Positions 50,466 to 55,579 of a stretch of DNA of 64,000 nt are shown here, one piece after another. Each line of letters starts with the position of its first letter. The stretch's first letter is position 1. A model generated the notes under the pieces. That model saw only the letters and a program-made list of their open reading frames with translations. It was not told the DNA's origin and made no database searches. The position numbers and the translations under genes are program-made. Origin of the DNA: Salinimicrobium profundisediminis (lineage in GTDB: Bacteria > Bacteroidota > Bacteroidia > Flavobacteriales > Flavobacteriaceae); contig NZ_JAPJDA010000002.1 in the NCBI RefSeq assembly GCF_026241755.1, positions 186,001 through 250,000 of the forward strand, written 5' to 3'.

Positions 50466-50503
50466 AAAAAAGCCACAGATCTTTGCGATCTATGGCTTTT
50501 TAA
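50466..50503. terminator. Bidirectional terminator between dinB and pyk
   Basis: AGCCACAGATC (50471-50481) pairs with GATCTATGGCT (50487-50497) with one mismatch, flanked by A and T runs, so it can serve dinB (plus) and pyk (minus). Confidence 0.8.
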
Positions 50504-50546: not shown

Positions 50547-51977
50547 TTATTCAATTTCTGAAATTCTCAACGTATTCACCATTCCTTTACTGGTAATAGG
50601 CATGGCTGCGAGGTTGATGGTGAAATCACCCTTTTCAACAAATTTATTTTCTGAAGCAATCCTGTTGATATCATCAATAGTCTCGTCTGTACTTACCATT
50701 TTATCGTAGTAAAACGCACGTACCCCCCATAAAAGGCTTAATTGATTAAGGATCCTTTTATTAGAAGTGAACACAAGAATATTAGATTCTGGTCTCCAGG
50801 CCGAGATCTGGAAAGCTGTATAACCACTATTGGTCAAAGTACAAATAGCTTTAGCTTTGATCTCATTGGCCATATGGGCAGCGTGGTAACAGATAGATTT
50901 GGTGATGTATCTCTTGGTACGCACGTGAGGTGGCTCATGAGGTACTTTAATAAGCGGTGAATTCTCAACGCTCATAATAATTTGGCTCATTTTTTCAATC
51001 ACCTGCACCGGGTAATTACCTACTGAAGTTTCTCCACTTAACATCACGGCATCGGCCCCGTCCATTACAGAGTTCGCCACGTCGTTCACCTCGGCCCTTG
51101 TAGGGGTAAGGCTGGTGATCATGGTTTCCATCATTTGGGTAGCAATTATAACCGGAATACGGGCTTTTTTAGCCTTTAGCACCAGTTGCTTCTGAATAAG
51201 CGGAACTTCCTGTGCAGGAATTTCCACTCCCAGGTCACCGCGCGCTACCATTAGTCCGTCGCAATAAGCCACGATCTTGTCGATATTATCAACACCTTCA
51301 GGCTTTTCGATCTTGGCGATGATTGGGATCTTGTGATCTGTATGTTCTTTTATTAAATTCTGAAGTTGAATAAGGTCATCGCTGTTTCTTACAAAAGAAA
51401 GTGCAATCCAGTCTACACCCTGCTCAACTGCAAAAATGGCATCCTGAATATCTTTTTCGGTAAGGGCCGGAAGGGAAATCTTTGTATTAGGAAGGTTAAC
51501 TCCTTTTTTAGATCTCAATGGGCCTCCCTGTATCACTTTTGCAAGAACCTCATCTTTTTGGTTGGTAGACACCACTTCAAAGATAAGTTTACCATCATCA
51601 AGAAGAATTCGCTCTCCGGCTTTTACATCCTGAGGGAATTCATCGTAGTTCATGTAAACCCTGGAAGCGGTACCTTCAAATTCTTCACCGGTGGCAAAGG
51701 TGATTTCATCTCCTTTGGTTACCACCACTTCTTCCTTCATCTTCCCTACCCTTAATTTGGGTCCCTGCAGGTCACCAAGTATGGCCGCGGTAAAGCCATT
51801 TTCTTCATTTAGTTCCCTTATAAGCTTTATGCGTTGTTTTACATCTTCATAATCGGCGTGAGAAAAATTGATCCTAAACACGTTTACACCTGCATGCATC
51901 ATATCTCTCAAAACGTCTTTCGAACTCGTTGCTGGCCCTAGGGTGGCCACAATTTTAGTCTTTTTCGTATTCGGCAT
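50547..51977 (-). CDS. pyk: Pyruvate kinase
   Basis: Last step of glycolysis, making pyruvate and ATP from PEP. Motifs: TKIVATLGPATSS (6-18), AKIEKPEGVDNID (catalytic Lys region), MVARGDLGVEIP (metal ligands) and IIATQMMETMI. The 476 residues are standard. The IPExxxVDY gene directly precedes it with a shared base. No allosteric site can be judged from sequence reading alone. Confidence 0.97.
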   Translation of the reverse strand: MPNTKKTKIVATLGPATSSKDVLRDMMHAGVNVFRINFSHADYEDVKQRIKLIRELNEENGFTAAILGDLQGPKLRVGKMKEEVVVTKGDEITFATGEEFEGTASRVYMNYDEFPQDVKAGERILLDDGKLIFEVVSTNQKDEVLAKVIQGGPLRSKKGVNLPNTKISLPALTEKDIQDAIFAVEQGVDWIALSFVRNSDDLIQLQNLIKEHTDHKIPIIAKIEKPEGVDNIDKIVAYCDGLMVARGDLGVEIPAQEVPLIQKQLVLKAKKARIPVIIATQMMETMITSLTPTRAEVNDVANSVMDGADAVMLSGETSVGNYPVQVIEKMSQIIMSVENSPLIKVPHEPPHVRTKRYITKSICYHAAHMANEIKAKAICTLTNSGYTAFQISAWRPESNILVFTSNKRILNQLSLLWGVRAFYYDKMVSTDETIDDINRIASENKFVEKGDFTINLAAMPITSKGMVNTLRISEIE

Positions 51978-52465
51978 TAGTCAAAAATTAAATTTTCTTT
52001 AGTTTTTATGTGATGAAAATCAACGGCATACGCCGTAGAAACCTGTGGGATCTCGAGGATCAATGCGTTGAGCATCTTTAAAGATACCGCATCCAGTTCA
52101 TCCTCGATCTTCAGCAAAAAATCTACCTGCTTAAATTCTGGTAATAGAATTGATTTTTGGACAGCCAGTTCATCCCCAAAAAAAAGAGAGTCCTTATTAG
52201 AACCCGTTCTTCCTTCCCGCCTGGCAACGTTACTTACCAGGTGATAAGTACAATATTGCCGTAGATCTTCATAGATAAAATGCGCAAAATAGTTGCTCTC
52301 ATTTCCTTTATGAAGATCAATATCCTTTGGCGTTCTGGCTAATTTAAGGCCTAAATGTTTGTTCAACAGGTAAGCCAGCTTGTACTCTTCTACCGAAGAA
52401 TGTACTGCAAGTAGCTTGTAGGGCTGTTCAAAAACGTCATTTAAAACCAGTTTATGCGCCGGCAT
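51977..52465 (-). CDS. IPExxxVDY-family protein
   Basis: A 162-residue Bacteroidota protein named after its C-terminal motif, here EIPQVSTAYAVDFHHIKTKE (IPQ...VDF variant). The rest is soluble with charged helices. Function unknown; it is regularly found next to pyruvate kinase, as here (stop and start share a base). It is transcribed with pyk, downstream of rnc. Confidence 0.85.
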   Translation of the reverse strand: MPAHKLVLNDVFEQPYKLLAVHSSVEEYKLAYLLNKHLGLKLARTPKDIDLHKGNESNYFAHFIYEDLRQYCTYHLVSNVARREGRTGSNKDSLFFGDELAVQKSILLPEFKQVDFLLKIEDELDAVSLKMLNALILEIPQVSTAYAVDFHHIKTKENLIFD

Positions 52466-52573
52466 ATGATTTTACATCAAAGGTTAAAGATAATTATTGC
52501 ATCGCAGAAAAGTAATTTTTTGGGGTATATTTTCAGAATATCTTACGAAAACGTTATAGTTTCTGCTATATTT

Positions 52574-53311
52574 TTAAGGGTGGTCAATTTTGCTCTGCAG
52601 GGCGTAATATGCCCTTTTGGATGCTTTTTCTTCGGCTTTCTTCTTTGAAGTCGCCCTGGCTTTAGCCACAACCCTGTTCTCAATCCTTAATTTTACAGCA
52701 AAATGTTTTAGCTCGTCTTTTCCTGTATCTTCATAGACTTCAAAGCTAAACTCTTTCTTCTCCTTTTGGCACCACTCGATTAAGAGTCCTTTATAACTTA
52801 TAACCGTGCCTTCCAGTTGCTCGATATCTACATAAGGCTCAATTACCCTTTCATAAATAAATTTTTTGGTATACCTGTAGCCTCTATCAAGGTAAATGGC
52901 ACCTACAAGGGCTTCAAAAAGGTTTCCATGGATGTTTGTGCCAAACTGCTCTATGGGAATATTAGTCTGAATATATTTGATCAACTCGAGATCTTTCCCA
53001 AGTTCATTCAGGTGTTTACGGCTTACAATCTTGGAGCGCATTTTTGTGAGGTAGCCTTCGTTACCACTTGGCACTTCATTGAACAGGTGCGAAGCTATAA
53101 CGGCACTTAGCATAGCATCTCCAAGAAATTCCATCCTTTCAAAGTTGATGGCGTTGCCCTCTGCATCTTTCTGGTTTAAAGAGCGGTGGGTGAATGCTTT
53201 TTTGTAGTGTGCAATATTGCGGGGTTTGAACCCCATTATCTTTGTTAATTCAACAAAAAAATTCCCGCCTCTGGAGGAGCGGGAATTTAATATGTTTCTT
53301 ATTACACTCAT
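52574..53311 (-). CDS. rnc: Ribonuclease III
   Basis: Double-strand-specific endoribonuclease that processes rRNA precursors and regulatory RNAs. The catalytic signature FERMEFLGDAM (57-67) with Glu61 and Asp65 is intact, and a C-terminal dsRNA-binding domain follows from about 165 (SYKGLLIEWCQKEKKEFSFE, KKKAEEKASKRAYYAL). It starts nine bases after the fabF stop. Its first codons contain a long hairpin followed by T residues (see separate feature); an alternative start at Met26 would lie after the hairpin but would remove the conserved first helix. Confidence 0.95.
   Translation of the reverse strand: MSVIRNILNSRSSRGGNFFVELTKIMGFKPRNIAHYKKAFTHRSLNQKDAEGNAINFERMEFLGDAMLSAVIASHLFNEVPSGNEGYLTKMRSKIVSRKHLNELGKDLELIKYIQTNIPIEQFGTNIHGNLFEALVGAIYLDRGYRYTKKFIYERVIEPYVDIEQLEGTVISYKGLLIEWCQKEKKEFSFEVYEDTGKDELKHFAVKLRIENRVVAKARATSKKKAEEKASKRAYYALQSKIDHP
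53254..53288 (-). terminator. Terminator-shaped hairpin in the first codons of rnc
   Basis: Minus strand: AAATTCCCGC (plus 53279-53288), a 10-base loop that can pair further (CTC/GAG), GCGGGAATTT (plus 53259-53268), then T residues to 53254. It lies within rnc codons 8-20, after the acpP-fabF genes. Confidence 0.7.
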
Positions 53312-53319
53312 GGAAGAAT

Positions 53320-54573
53320 TTACTCGTCCAGTTTTTTAAACAAAACGCAGGCATTATGACCTCCAAAACCAAAGGTATTGCTCATAGCCACTTTCACATC
53401 TCTCTTCTGCGCCTTATTAAGGGTAAGATTTAATTCGGGATCAATATTTTCATCCTGAACTTCGTGATTGATTGTAGGTGGTACAATTCCATGTTTCATG
53501 GCGAGAATAGAGGCAATTGCTTCTACAGCTCCCGCAGCACCCAACAGGTGACCTGTCATGGATTTTGTAGAGTTGATATTAATATCTTTAGCATGCTCTC
53601 CAAACACCTTCTTAATAGCCTTAAGTTCAGCCACATCACCCAACGGTGTTGATGTTCCGTGTGTGTTGATGTGATCTACATCTTCCGGTTTAAGTTCTGC
53701 ATTTCTAAGGCAATTCTCCATTACAGCCACTACTCCTATCCCTTCGGGATGTGGGGCAGTCATGTGGTGGGCATCCGAAGATAACCCGCCCCCAAGTACT
53801 TCTGCATAGATCTTCGCTCCTCTCGCTTTTGCATGTTCATATTCTTCAAGAACAAGTGCACCCGCACCTTCACCTAAGACAAAACCATCTCGTGTTGCAT
53901 CAAAAGGTCTTGAAGCAGTCTCGGGACTCTCATTTCTTGTTGAAAGCGCATGCATGGCATTAAAACCACCCATTCCGGCAGGAGCAACTGCCGCCTCACT
54001 TCCCCCTGTGACTATTATATCACTGTGGCCCAACCTAATATAGTTCAACGCATCTATAAGCGCATTGGCTGCAGATGCACATGCTGAAACTGTAGTATAG
54101 TTAGGGCCCATGAAGCCGTGCTTGATGGAAATATTTCCCGGAGCAATATCGGCAATCATTTTAGGGATAAAGAAAGGGTTGAATCTTGGGGTTCCGTCAC
54201 CTTTACCAAAAGCCAAAACTTCATCCTGGAAGGTTTCGAGACCTCCAATCCCGGCACCCCAGATAACTCCTACACGAAGCTTATCAATAGCATCGAGGTC
54301 CAGCCCCGAATCTTTGATAGCCTCATCTGAAGCTACCAGGGCGTACTGGGCGAACTTGTCAAGCTTCCTGGCTTCCTTTCGATCAAAATAATCTTCAACC
54401 TTGAAGTTTTTGATCTCGCAAGCGAATTTAGTTTTGAATTTCTCGGTATCAAAATAGGTAATGGGTGCAGACCCGCTTTTACCATTTACCAGGGCTTCCC
54501 AGTATTCCTCAATGTTATTTCCAATGGGGGTAAGGGCACCTAATCCAGTTACTACAACTCGCTTCAACTCCAT
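53320..54573 (-). CDS. fabF: 3-oxoacyl-ACP synthase II
   Basis: Elongating condensing enzyme of fatty-acid synthesis. The active site is complete: Cys165 in TVSACASAANA, His305 in NTHGTSTPLGD and His342 in KSMTGHLLGAAG. The 417 residues match FabF. The acpP gene precedes it by 17 bases, giving acpP-fabF-rnc, a common bacterial order. Confidence 0.97.
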   Translation of the reverse strand: MELKRVVVTGLGALTPIGNNIEEYWEALVNGKSGSAPITYFDTEKFKTKFACEIKNFKVEDYFDRKEARKLDKFAQYALVASDEAIKDSGLDLDAIDKLRVGVIWGAGIGGLETFQDEVLAFGKGDGTPRFNPFFIPKMIADIAPGNISIKHGFMGPNYTTVSACASAANALIDALNYIRLGHSDIIVTGGSEAAVAPAGMGGFNAMHALSTRNESPETASRPFDATRDGFVLGEGAGALVLEEYEHAKARGAKIYAEVLGGGLSSDAHHMTAPHPEGIGVVAVMENCLRNAELKPEDVDHINTHGTSTPLGDVAELKAIKKVFGEHAKDININSTKSMTGHLLGAAGAVEAIASILAMKHGIVPPTINHEVQDENIDPELNLTLNKAQKRDVKVAMSNTFGFGGHNACVLFKKLDE

Positions 54574-54590
54574 AAGGATATGTTAGTTTT

Positions 54591-54827
54591 TTATTTTTTT
54601 GCGTCTTCAATATAAGAGATTGCCTGACCCACAGTAGCAATGTTCTCTGCCTGGTCGTCTGGAATCTGGATATCAAATTCCTTCTCGAACTCCATGATCA
54701 ACTCTACAGTGTCTAGTGAATCAGCGCCCAAGTCGTTGGTGAAGCTAGCTTCGTTTACTACTTCATTCTCGTCAACTCCTAACTTGTCAACGATAATCGC
54801 TTTTACTCTTGATGCAATGTCTGACAT
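54591..54827 (-). CDS. acpP: Acyl carrier protein
   Basis: A 78-residue carrier that holds growing acyl chains on a phosphopantetheine arm attached to Ser37 in [12 protein letters not shown]. The helix III region VGQAISYI completes the four-helix bundle. First gene of acpP-fabF-rnc; a TATTTTTG element (plus 54859-54866) lies 31 bases upstream. Confidence 0.98.
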
Positions 54828-54858
54828 AACTTGTGTTTTTAATTTTTAATTTAAGTGG

Positions 54859-54866
54859 CAAAAATA
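54859..54866 (-). promoter_or_regulatory. Promoter -7 element of acpP
   Basis: Minus strand TATTTTTG, 31 bases before the acpP ATG. No clear -33 TTG, so moderate support. Confidence 0.5.
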
Positions 54867-54976
54867 AAAAACTTTATTTTAAAACCTGTTTTTACTTTAA
54901 AAATGTGAATGTAAATTACATAATTTCCGCCTAAAGCCAGTATTTTTACCTGCCAATAATTGTTAACACCCTACGC

Positions 54977-55579
54977 TTGCAACAAGTAAGAAATTCAAGA
55001 AAGAACAAAATTGTGATCTTTGCTTCGGGTAATGGATCAAATGCCGAGAATATTATTAAGTACTTTCAGCAAAAAGACACTGCTGAAGTTATCGCGGTTT
55101 TCTCCAACAACCGCAGGGCAAAAGTACTGGAAAGAGCACATAATCTGGGCGTAAAGGCCCTGCATTTTGACCGCCAGGCGCTTTATCATTCCAATGAGGT
55201 ACAACGTTTATTGATTGACATGAACCCAGACCTTATTGTACTGGCCGGCTTTCTTTGGATCTTCCCTACCAATATTCTGCAACACTTTCCTAATAAGGTG
55301 ATCAATATTCATCCTGCTCTTCTTCCAAATTACGGCGGAAAAGGTATGTATGGCATGAATGTTCACAAAGCTATACATGAAAATAAGGAAGTGGAAACAG
55401 GTATAAGTATACATTACGTCAATGAAAATTATGACGAGGGAAAAATGATCTTTCAGGCTACCACTGCTATTAAACCTGAAGACTCGGTAGAAGATATTGC
55501 CCACAAGATCCATGAACTGGAACAGGAACACTTTCCGAAGGTAATAGAAAACCTCTTACTCCCTGCTAAGAATGATTGA
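54977..55579 (+). CDS. purN: Phosphoribosylglycinamide formyltransferase
   Basis: Transfers a formyl group in purine synthesis using 10-formyl-THF. The substrate site ASGNGSNAENI lies near 17-27 and the catalytic region INIHPALLPNYGGKGMYG is intact. The first start codon in frame is TTG at 54977, with no ATG before the conserved core, so a TTG or an unrecognised start is used. It overlaps rnhA by eight bases and diverges from acpP. Confidence 0.93.
   Translation: MQQVRNSRKNKIVIFASGNGSNAENIIKYFQQKDTAEVIAVFSNNRRAKVLERAHNLGVKALHFDRQALYHSNEVQRLLIDMNPDLIVLAGFLWIFPTNILQHFPNKVINIHPALLPNYGGKGMYGMNVHKAIHENKEVETGISIHYVNENYDEGKMIFQATTAIKPEDSVEDIAHKIHELEQEHFPKVIENLLLPAKND

Follow-up and report, generated by a model that had tools for sequence, protein, structure and literature searches.

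The rnc gene of Salinimicrobium profundisediminis, which encodes RNase III, carries a GC-rich hairpin followed by a T tract within its first codons, and this arrangement raises the question of whether the element ends the transcripts arriving from upstream genes or plays another role. The locus was analysed in a window of 64,000 nucleotides (contig NZ_JAPJDA010000002.1, positions 186,001 to 250,000), in which acpP, fabF, rnc, a 162-aa ORF, and pyk succeed one another on the minus strand (Table 1). The closest named matches of rnc were Salinimicrobium records, with 93-95% identity. The 162-aa ORF showed no Pfam match at E 0.001 and is presumably IPExxVDY by name. The genome also has a gene for tmRNA. 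Directly 3' of pyk, at window positions 50467-50501 on the minus strand, a terminator-like hairpin of 15 pairs was observed, which is perhaps the end of the operon.

Table 1. Features of the rnc region, in positions of the window.
Feature	Positions	Strand	Description
pyk	50547..51977	minus	pyruvate kinase; downstream of the rnc element
162-aa ORF	51977..52465	minus	downstream of the rnc element
rnc	52574..53311	minus	RNase III, 245 aa; ATG start at 53311
Seven-T tract	53255..53261	minus	rnc codons 17-19, ending TTT TTT; putative RNA release site
GC-rich stem-loop	53259..53288	minus	rnc codons 8-18; 11 pairs, 8-nt loop
AAC ATA TTA, codons 6-8	53288..53296	minus	upstream flank; synonymous conservation without explanation
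fabF-rnc gap	53312..53319	minus	8 nt between fabF stop and rnc ATG
fabF	53320..54573	minus	beta-ketoacyl synthase; transcript the element would end
acpP	54591..54827	minus	acyl carrier protein

The stem is formed by minus-strand positions 53288-53278 pairing with 53269-53259 (ten Watson-Crick pairs and one T-G), and the first three T of the T tract are also paired within it. A preliminary description, which had noted a terminator-like hairpin inside rnc just after fabF, was borne out by the 11 pairs and seven T, which together occupy rnc codons 8-19 behind the short intergenic gap. The segment 53254-53291 folds at -15.4 kcal/mol (z -4.2), and none of 200 shuffles was equally stable. The element thus has the stable GC-rich hairpin of an intrinsic terminator and, directly after the stem, the T tract, here of seven conserved T; this combination is not due to chance. 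A simple terminator scanner listed the element as terminator-like and reported 17 sites on both strands of the surrounding 8 kb, compared with 7.8 in shuffles. Hairpin-plus-T sites with a score of at least 19 numbered 81 across 250 kb of this contig, and 14 of them lay in sense inside a mechanically called ORF, the rnc site scoring 22.7. Among these 14, one was compact (score 19.4, at nt 218 of another ORF), and one with a score of 22.8 was also listed as a terminator 14 nt after the stop of another ORF, so that the start of its own ORF was probably called too early; the other 11 were hairpins spanning 33-45 nt. When a covariance model built from relatives, with the window sequence included, was run on the genome itself, rnc was the best match (58.1 bits, against 34.3 for the next). 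Repeated or mobile sequence was rejected on account of this second-best match, 23.8 bits lower. An antisense terminator was likewise rejected, as the plus strand folds as well but is then followed by TTTAATATG and not by a T tract. Nor was a known RNA family recognised: the four Rfam matches with E up to 5 in 52000-55200 all stayed well short of their gathering scores.

The distribution of the element was assessed in three sets of loci. The own-family set of 121 loci comprised 12 genus loci (our own included), 80 relatives from named genomes, counted in without a check of each one's family, and 29 loci from an order-wide search; the 40 stretches from other Flavobacteriales were drawn from the 171 genomes, out of 196, that gave a match, and the 40 outgroup loci from the rest of the phylum were taken from 147 matching genomes among 148, a search that also held family and order genomes. 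Presence was scored over the first 110 nt of rnc with a measure of our own, the hairpin energy plus twice a T-tract score, at a cut-off of 17.5 chosen after the scores were seen. By this measure, the element stood at the rnc start in 113 of the 121 own-family-set loci (110 of 118 distinct loci, three being duplicates), in 16/40 other Flavobacteriales, and in 1/40 outgroup loci, and the hairpin was directly followed by a T tract in 129/161 Flavobacteriales loci. As a control, other coding windows were scored in the Flavobacteriales loci, of which 24 of 1970 reached as high a score, and the single outgroup positive (L195) is in line with this background. Gene order alone is not sufficient for the element, since fabF lies within 20 nt upstream of rnc in 22/40 outgroup loci; fabF was upstream on the same strand in all 161 Flavobacteriales loci, so that no relocated rnc offers itself as a natural test. 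The element is dispensable, being missing by score in 24/40 other Flavobacteriales and 8/121 own-family-set loci. Start codons were set by script, in the outgroup as well, and are too early in several loci (e.g., L035, L040, L094, L095, L113, L114, and L119), which shifts the distances given below. A scan of 196 order genomes with the covariance model under strict filters gave a match at E <=0.01 in 59; judged by eye, 25 of 30 family genomes and 10 further genomes had their best match at the beginning of rnc, and the remaining ones had it elsewhere.

Some loci depart from the common form and count against a pure terminator. In L125 and L126, the first 75 nt of rnc contain a -22 kcal/mol hairpin at the same place without a T tract, and five loci of the Aequorivita group have a weakened T tract, a weakened stem, or both: L056, L063, and L088 keep the hairpin with a shorter T tract, while in L069 and L074 the stem is degraded or refolded. 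The 3' arm of L056, L063, and L069 is able to pair with a downstream ATTCCC, and the fold of L069 shows the alternative hairpin; apart from this possible alternative in some Aequorivita-group loci, no competing antiterminator was seen in the element folds. In the outgroup loci L169, L189, and L199, which have a long fabF-rnc gap, terminator-like hairpins were seen by eye inside the gap.

The hairpin is conserved as an RNA structure. In an alignment of 87 loci of the 110 listed, 94.3% of the cells were standard pairs, and RNAalifold recovered 9 of the 11 stem pairs unaided. Changes on both sides of a pair affected 35 cells, compared with 9.0 in shuffles, and 6 of the 11 pairs, compared with 3.4 in shuffles; only 2 of 500 shuffles reached 6, a control that is inflated by kinship among the sequences. 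When the partners were slid by 1-3 columns, paired cells dropped to 44-66%, although with the slide of -3 two-sided changes still occurred in 5 pairs and 24 cells. Conservation as a structure is supporting, without being strictly defining, for an intrinsic terminator, and the aligned sequences point to it here. Certain pair exchanges alter the protein: N9 and N17 are replaced by K9 and I17 in eight loci with the pair kept (the same pair is broken in six), and R11 becomes H11 in five loci together with a synonymous matching change at codon 15. The earlier idea that the RNA element restrains the protein sequence is upheld by the first of these, in which two amino acids change jointly and one stem pair is thereby swapped. 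The pair at columns 11-34 was broken in 6/87 loci and, on a FabF tree, changed at least 14 times, pairing not always being kept. On the same tree of 152 loci, which leaves out 41 near-duplicates and 7 loci without fabF (L064 is short, and L152 was set absent by hand), element presence and absence require at least 14 changes, gain and loss being indistinguishable; we read this as an old element that was probably lost several times.

Synonymous sites provided a further view of this constraint. The first codons were randomised 200 times in 151 loci with each locus's own codon use, and among the element-bearing loci, 111 of 119 had none of 200 recodings as good, seven had 1-3, and L152 had 17. Codon identity, measured among loci with the same amino acid, showed a mean excess at codons 6-19 of 0.379 in rnc, compared with 0.122 in fabF and 0.089 in the next gene, and fell to 0.032 at rnc codons 20-36. 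At codon 10, TCC accounted for 104 of 113 synonymous occurrences (background 0.085), at codon 16 GGG accounted for 110 of 111 (background 0.099), and Phe was TTT in 114/116 loci at codon 18 and 108/111 at codon 19 (background 0.761); since the loci are related, the significance of these counts is overstated. The recoding, the codon identity, and the codons of the T tract agree that the element is conserved at synonymous sites, the check that the preliminary description had proposed.

With respect to the protein, the predicted RNase III model had a mean pLDDT of 86.9, with values below 50 for residues 1-14 and a first long helix from residue 13, and among the matches listed to 41 solved sequences, no best match started before residue 17. 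From these match starts and the low pLDDT, the 5' stem arm probably codes for a flexible tail, and in the model the 3' arm and T tract would code for the start of the first long helix. The protein motif, for which a pattern was written after the sequences were seen, is mostly missing where the RNA element is missing (both present in 121 loci, neither in 29, element only in 8, and motif only in 3; n=161).

We consider it likely that rnc codons 8-19 constitute an intrinsic (Rho-independent) terminator of acpP-fabF transcripts and that RNase III is made only from readthrough. RNA polymerase coming from acpP-fabF would form the hairpin and U tract about 30 nt past the fabF stop codon, where a ribosome at this stop or at the rnc start should leave the element still uncovered, and most transcripts would probably end at the T tract. 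In 116 loci, the median distance from the fabF stop to the stem was 32 nt, and the stem begins about 25 nt past the rnc AUG. The former distance is not far from the median of 22 nt at which terminators follow 37 of 218 other ORFs within 250 kb of the contig. With its place downstream of the rnc start codon, the element would have to be read through by all rnc mRNA, whichever promoter it comes from; RNase III, and perhaps the products of the 162-aa ORF and pyk as well, would be made only from the readthrough fraction, which a ribosome already moving on rnc could raise. Termination would plausibly keep RNase III low. The terminated RNA is predicted to carry the start and about 19 rnc codons (median 19.3 in 109 loci) and, lacking a stop codon, would be a non-stop message for tmRNA rescue. 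In 13 element-bearing loci, the stem lies at least 70 nt past the fabF stop, leaving room for an intergenic terminator, and the element is kept; in these loci its function may lie in rnc and not in ending fabF transcripts, which supports an additional role in rnc expression.

Other explanations of the hairpin must be weighed against this one. That the codons are kept for the protein or by a low mutation rate at the 5' end, with the hairpin as a by-product, has in our judgement next to no chance of being correct. Synonymous change at gene 5' ends can be low without selection, for mutational reasons, according to PMC12725619, and codons 2-5 are about equally conserved in both genes (excess identity 0.286 in fabF and 0.252 in rnc). 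In contrast, the excess at codons 6-19 recurs neither in fabF nor in the next gene, and with these two neighbours as controls and the stem pairs covarying, it is hardly a mere 5'-end effect; moreover, recoding keeps the protein and loses the element, which argues against a protein by-product, and the low-confidence tail of the model covers residues 1-14. It is also highly improbable that polymerase slips on the T run by the hairpin, so that frameshifted rnc mRNA lowers or diversifies RNase III. Slippage stimulated by a stem-loop is a known phenomenon, described as having features in common with intrinsic terminators (PMC5009743), but the reading frame of rnc continues through the T run, with no stops inside it in the 12 genus loci, and slippage is therefore not needed for the enzyme.

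Autoregulation, in which RNase III would bind the hairpin and cut its own mRNA within the coding sequence, had been the alternative in the preliminary description and appears very unlikely here. L125 and L126, with a strong hairpin and no T tract, would suit it; however, the stem in the alignment has 9-11 bp, which falls short of a long double-stranded stem. The usual RNase III substrate stem is about twice that length. Passages of PMC3386247 describe how RNase III of S. aureus cuts its own coding sequence, and passages of PMC10126417 report autoregulation in Streptomyces. The former resembles our case in that an RNA structure within the rnc coding sequence limits RNase III, but the S. aureus cut, at position 296 of the coding sequence, falls deep within the gene, in a helix that is long and irregular, and both systems act by cleavage, whereas the present element lies close to the start and combines a short stem with a T tract that is conserved. 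The TTT TTT kept at synonymous sites would be useless for cleavage, and this constrained tract, together with the short stem, disfavours the idea. It is quite unlikely, in turn, that the hairpin terminates nothing and only slows rnc translation or protects the 3' end of a processed fabF RNA. In L056, L063, L088, L125, and L126, the hairpin persists with a weaker T tract or none, and structure near the start codon tunes translation in F. johnsoniae according to passages of PMC6847099; on the other hand, the zone given there is -20 to +20, outside which our stem lies, and a T tract directly follows the hairpin in most Flavobacteriales loci, with its T conserved at synonymous sites.

The proposed intrinsic terminator can be compared with several known systems. 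The nearest in geometry is an engineered tR2 terminator in E. coli, described in PMC4824070, which lies 30 bp past the AUG of the second ORF of an operon and works there, with translation costing it about 10% of its efficiency; the RNA that it yields has no stop codon for the second ORF, and the upstream gene is expressed at about half the reference level. The same paper states that repression of terminators is nearly total when only a few bases separate them from the gene, and that they become stronger again with distance. About 30 nt past fabF and 25 nt past the AUG, the rnc element would avoid both problems. The tR2 case is a plasmid construct, whereas the rnc element is natural and conserved across many genera, its termination being deduced from sequence. 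Intrinsic terminators at operon ends share the GC-rich stem, the direct T tract, and a distance of tens of nt past the stop, but the rnc element differs from them in being inside the next gene, past its start codon, and in encoding protein. Premature termination near gene starts is also known from the ORF-internal 3' ends and attenuators covered in passages of PMC7815308 (E. coli) and PMC10319736 (Borrelia), some of which are sensed by ribosomes; in contrast to these attenuators, no separate leader peptide was seen here, and the first codons of RNase III itself hold the putative terminator.

Among the titles listed from the open-licence literature, none named a terminator inside rnc of a flavobacterium; neither rnc nor fabF is named in the main text of the F. 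psychrophilum transcriptome study (PMC9723704), and the available passages of PMC7366714 and PMC13323073 contain nothing on the element. If termination occurs, this would be a natural terminator embedded in the codons of an enzyme with a global part in RNA processing, retained by most of one bacterial family and by part of the order around it, in which an RNA structure dictates amino acids, as in the exchange of N9/N17 for K9/I17; conserved N-terminal residues may then reflect RNA and not protein function, a warning for their interpretation. It would make testable the effect of ribosomes on intrinsic termination in Bacteroidota, the control of RNase III levels in these bacteria, and the means by which cells tolerate a built-in source of non-stop mRNA.

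The conserved flank upstream of the stem is a separate matter. The Ile codon 7 (53291-53293, minus strand) was ATA in 113/116 loci, while ATA makes up 0.246 of Ile codons; inserted codons alter its spacing to the stem in some loci. This conservation is not accounted for by a terminator, and the codon may be a ribosome timing signal or a control codon. A tentative and rather doubtful extension is that rnc serves as its own leader peptide: the ribosome on the first codons would decide whether polymerase passes the terminator in codons 8-19, perhaps timed at the ATA codon, so that RNase III output would report translation capacity and failed rounds would leave non-stop fabF-rnc RNA.

Base use ahead of the start codon gave a mixed picture on whether translation starts more weakly in rnc than in fabF. 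The frequency of A before the start in rnc and fabF, respectively, was 0.27 vs. 0.57 at -13, 0.51 vs. 0.45 at -12, 0.26 vs. 0.38 at -6, and 0.25 vs. 0.18 at -3. In a further group of loci (L026, L065, L068, L075, L077, L081, L083, L086, L090, L093, and L097), the fabF-rnc gap measures 83-108 nt. The extra stretch, which is perhaps a promoter and operator for rnc, had no second long copy, only short matches elsewhere, in two genomes, which likewise speaks against a repeated or mobile sequence. Most of these loci share a related inverted repeat, AATAAACCAT ... ATGGTTTATT, followed by ACATCTGA, and in several the old start has apparently been left behind as ATG AAA TAA.
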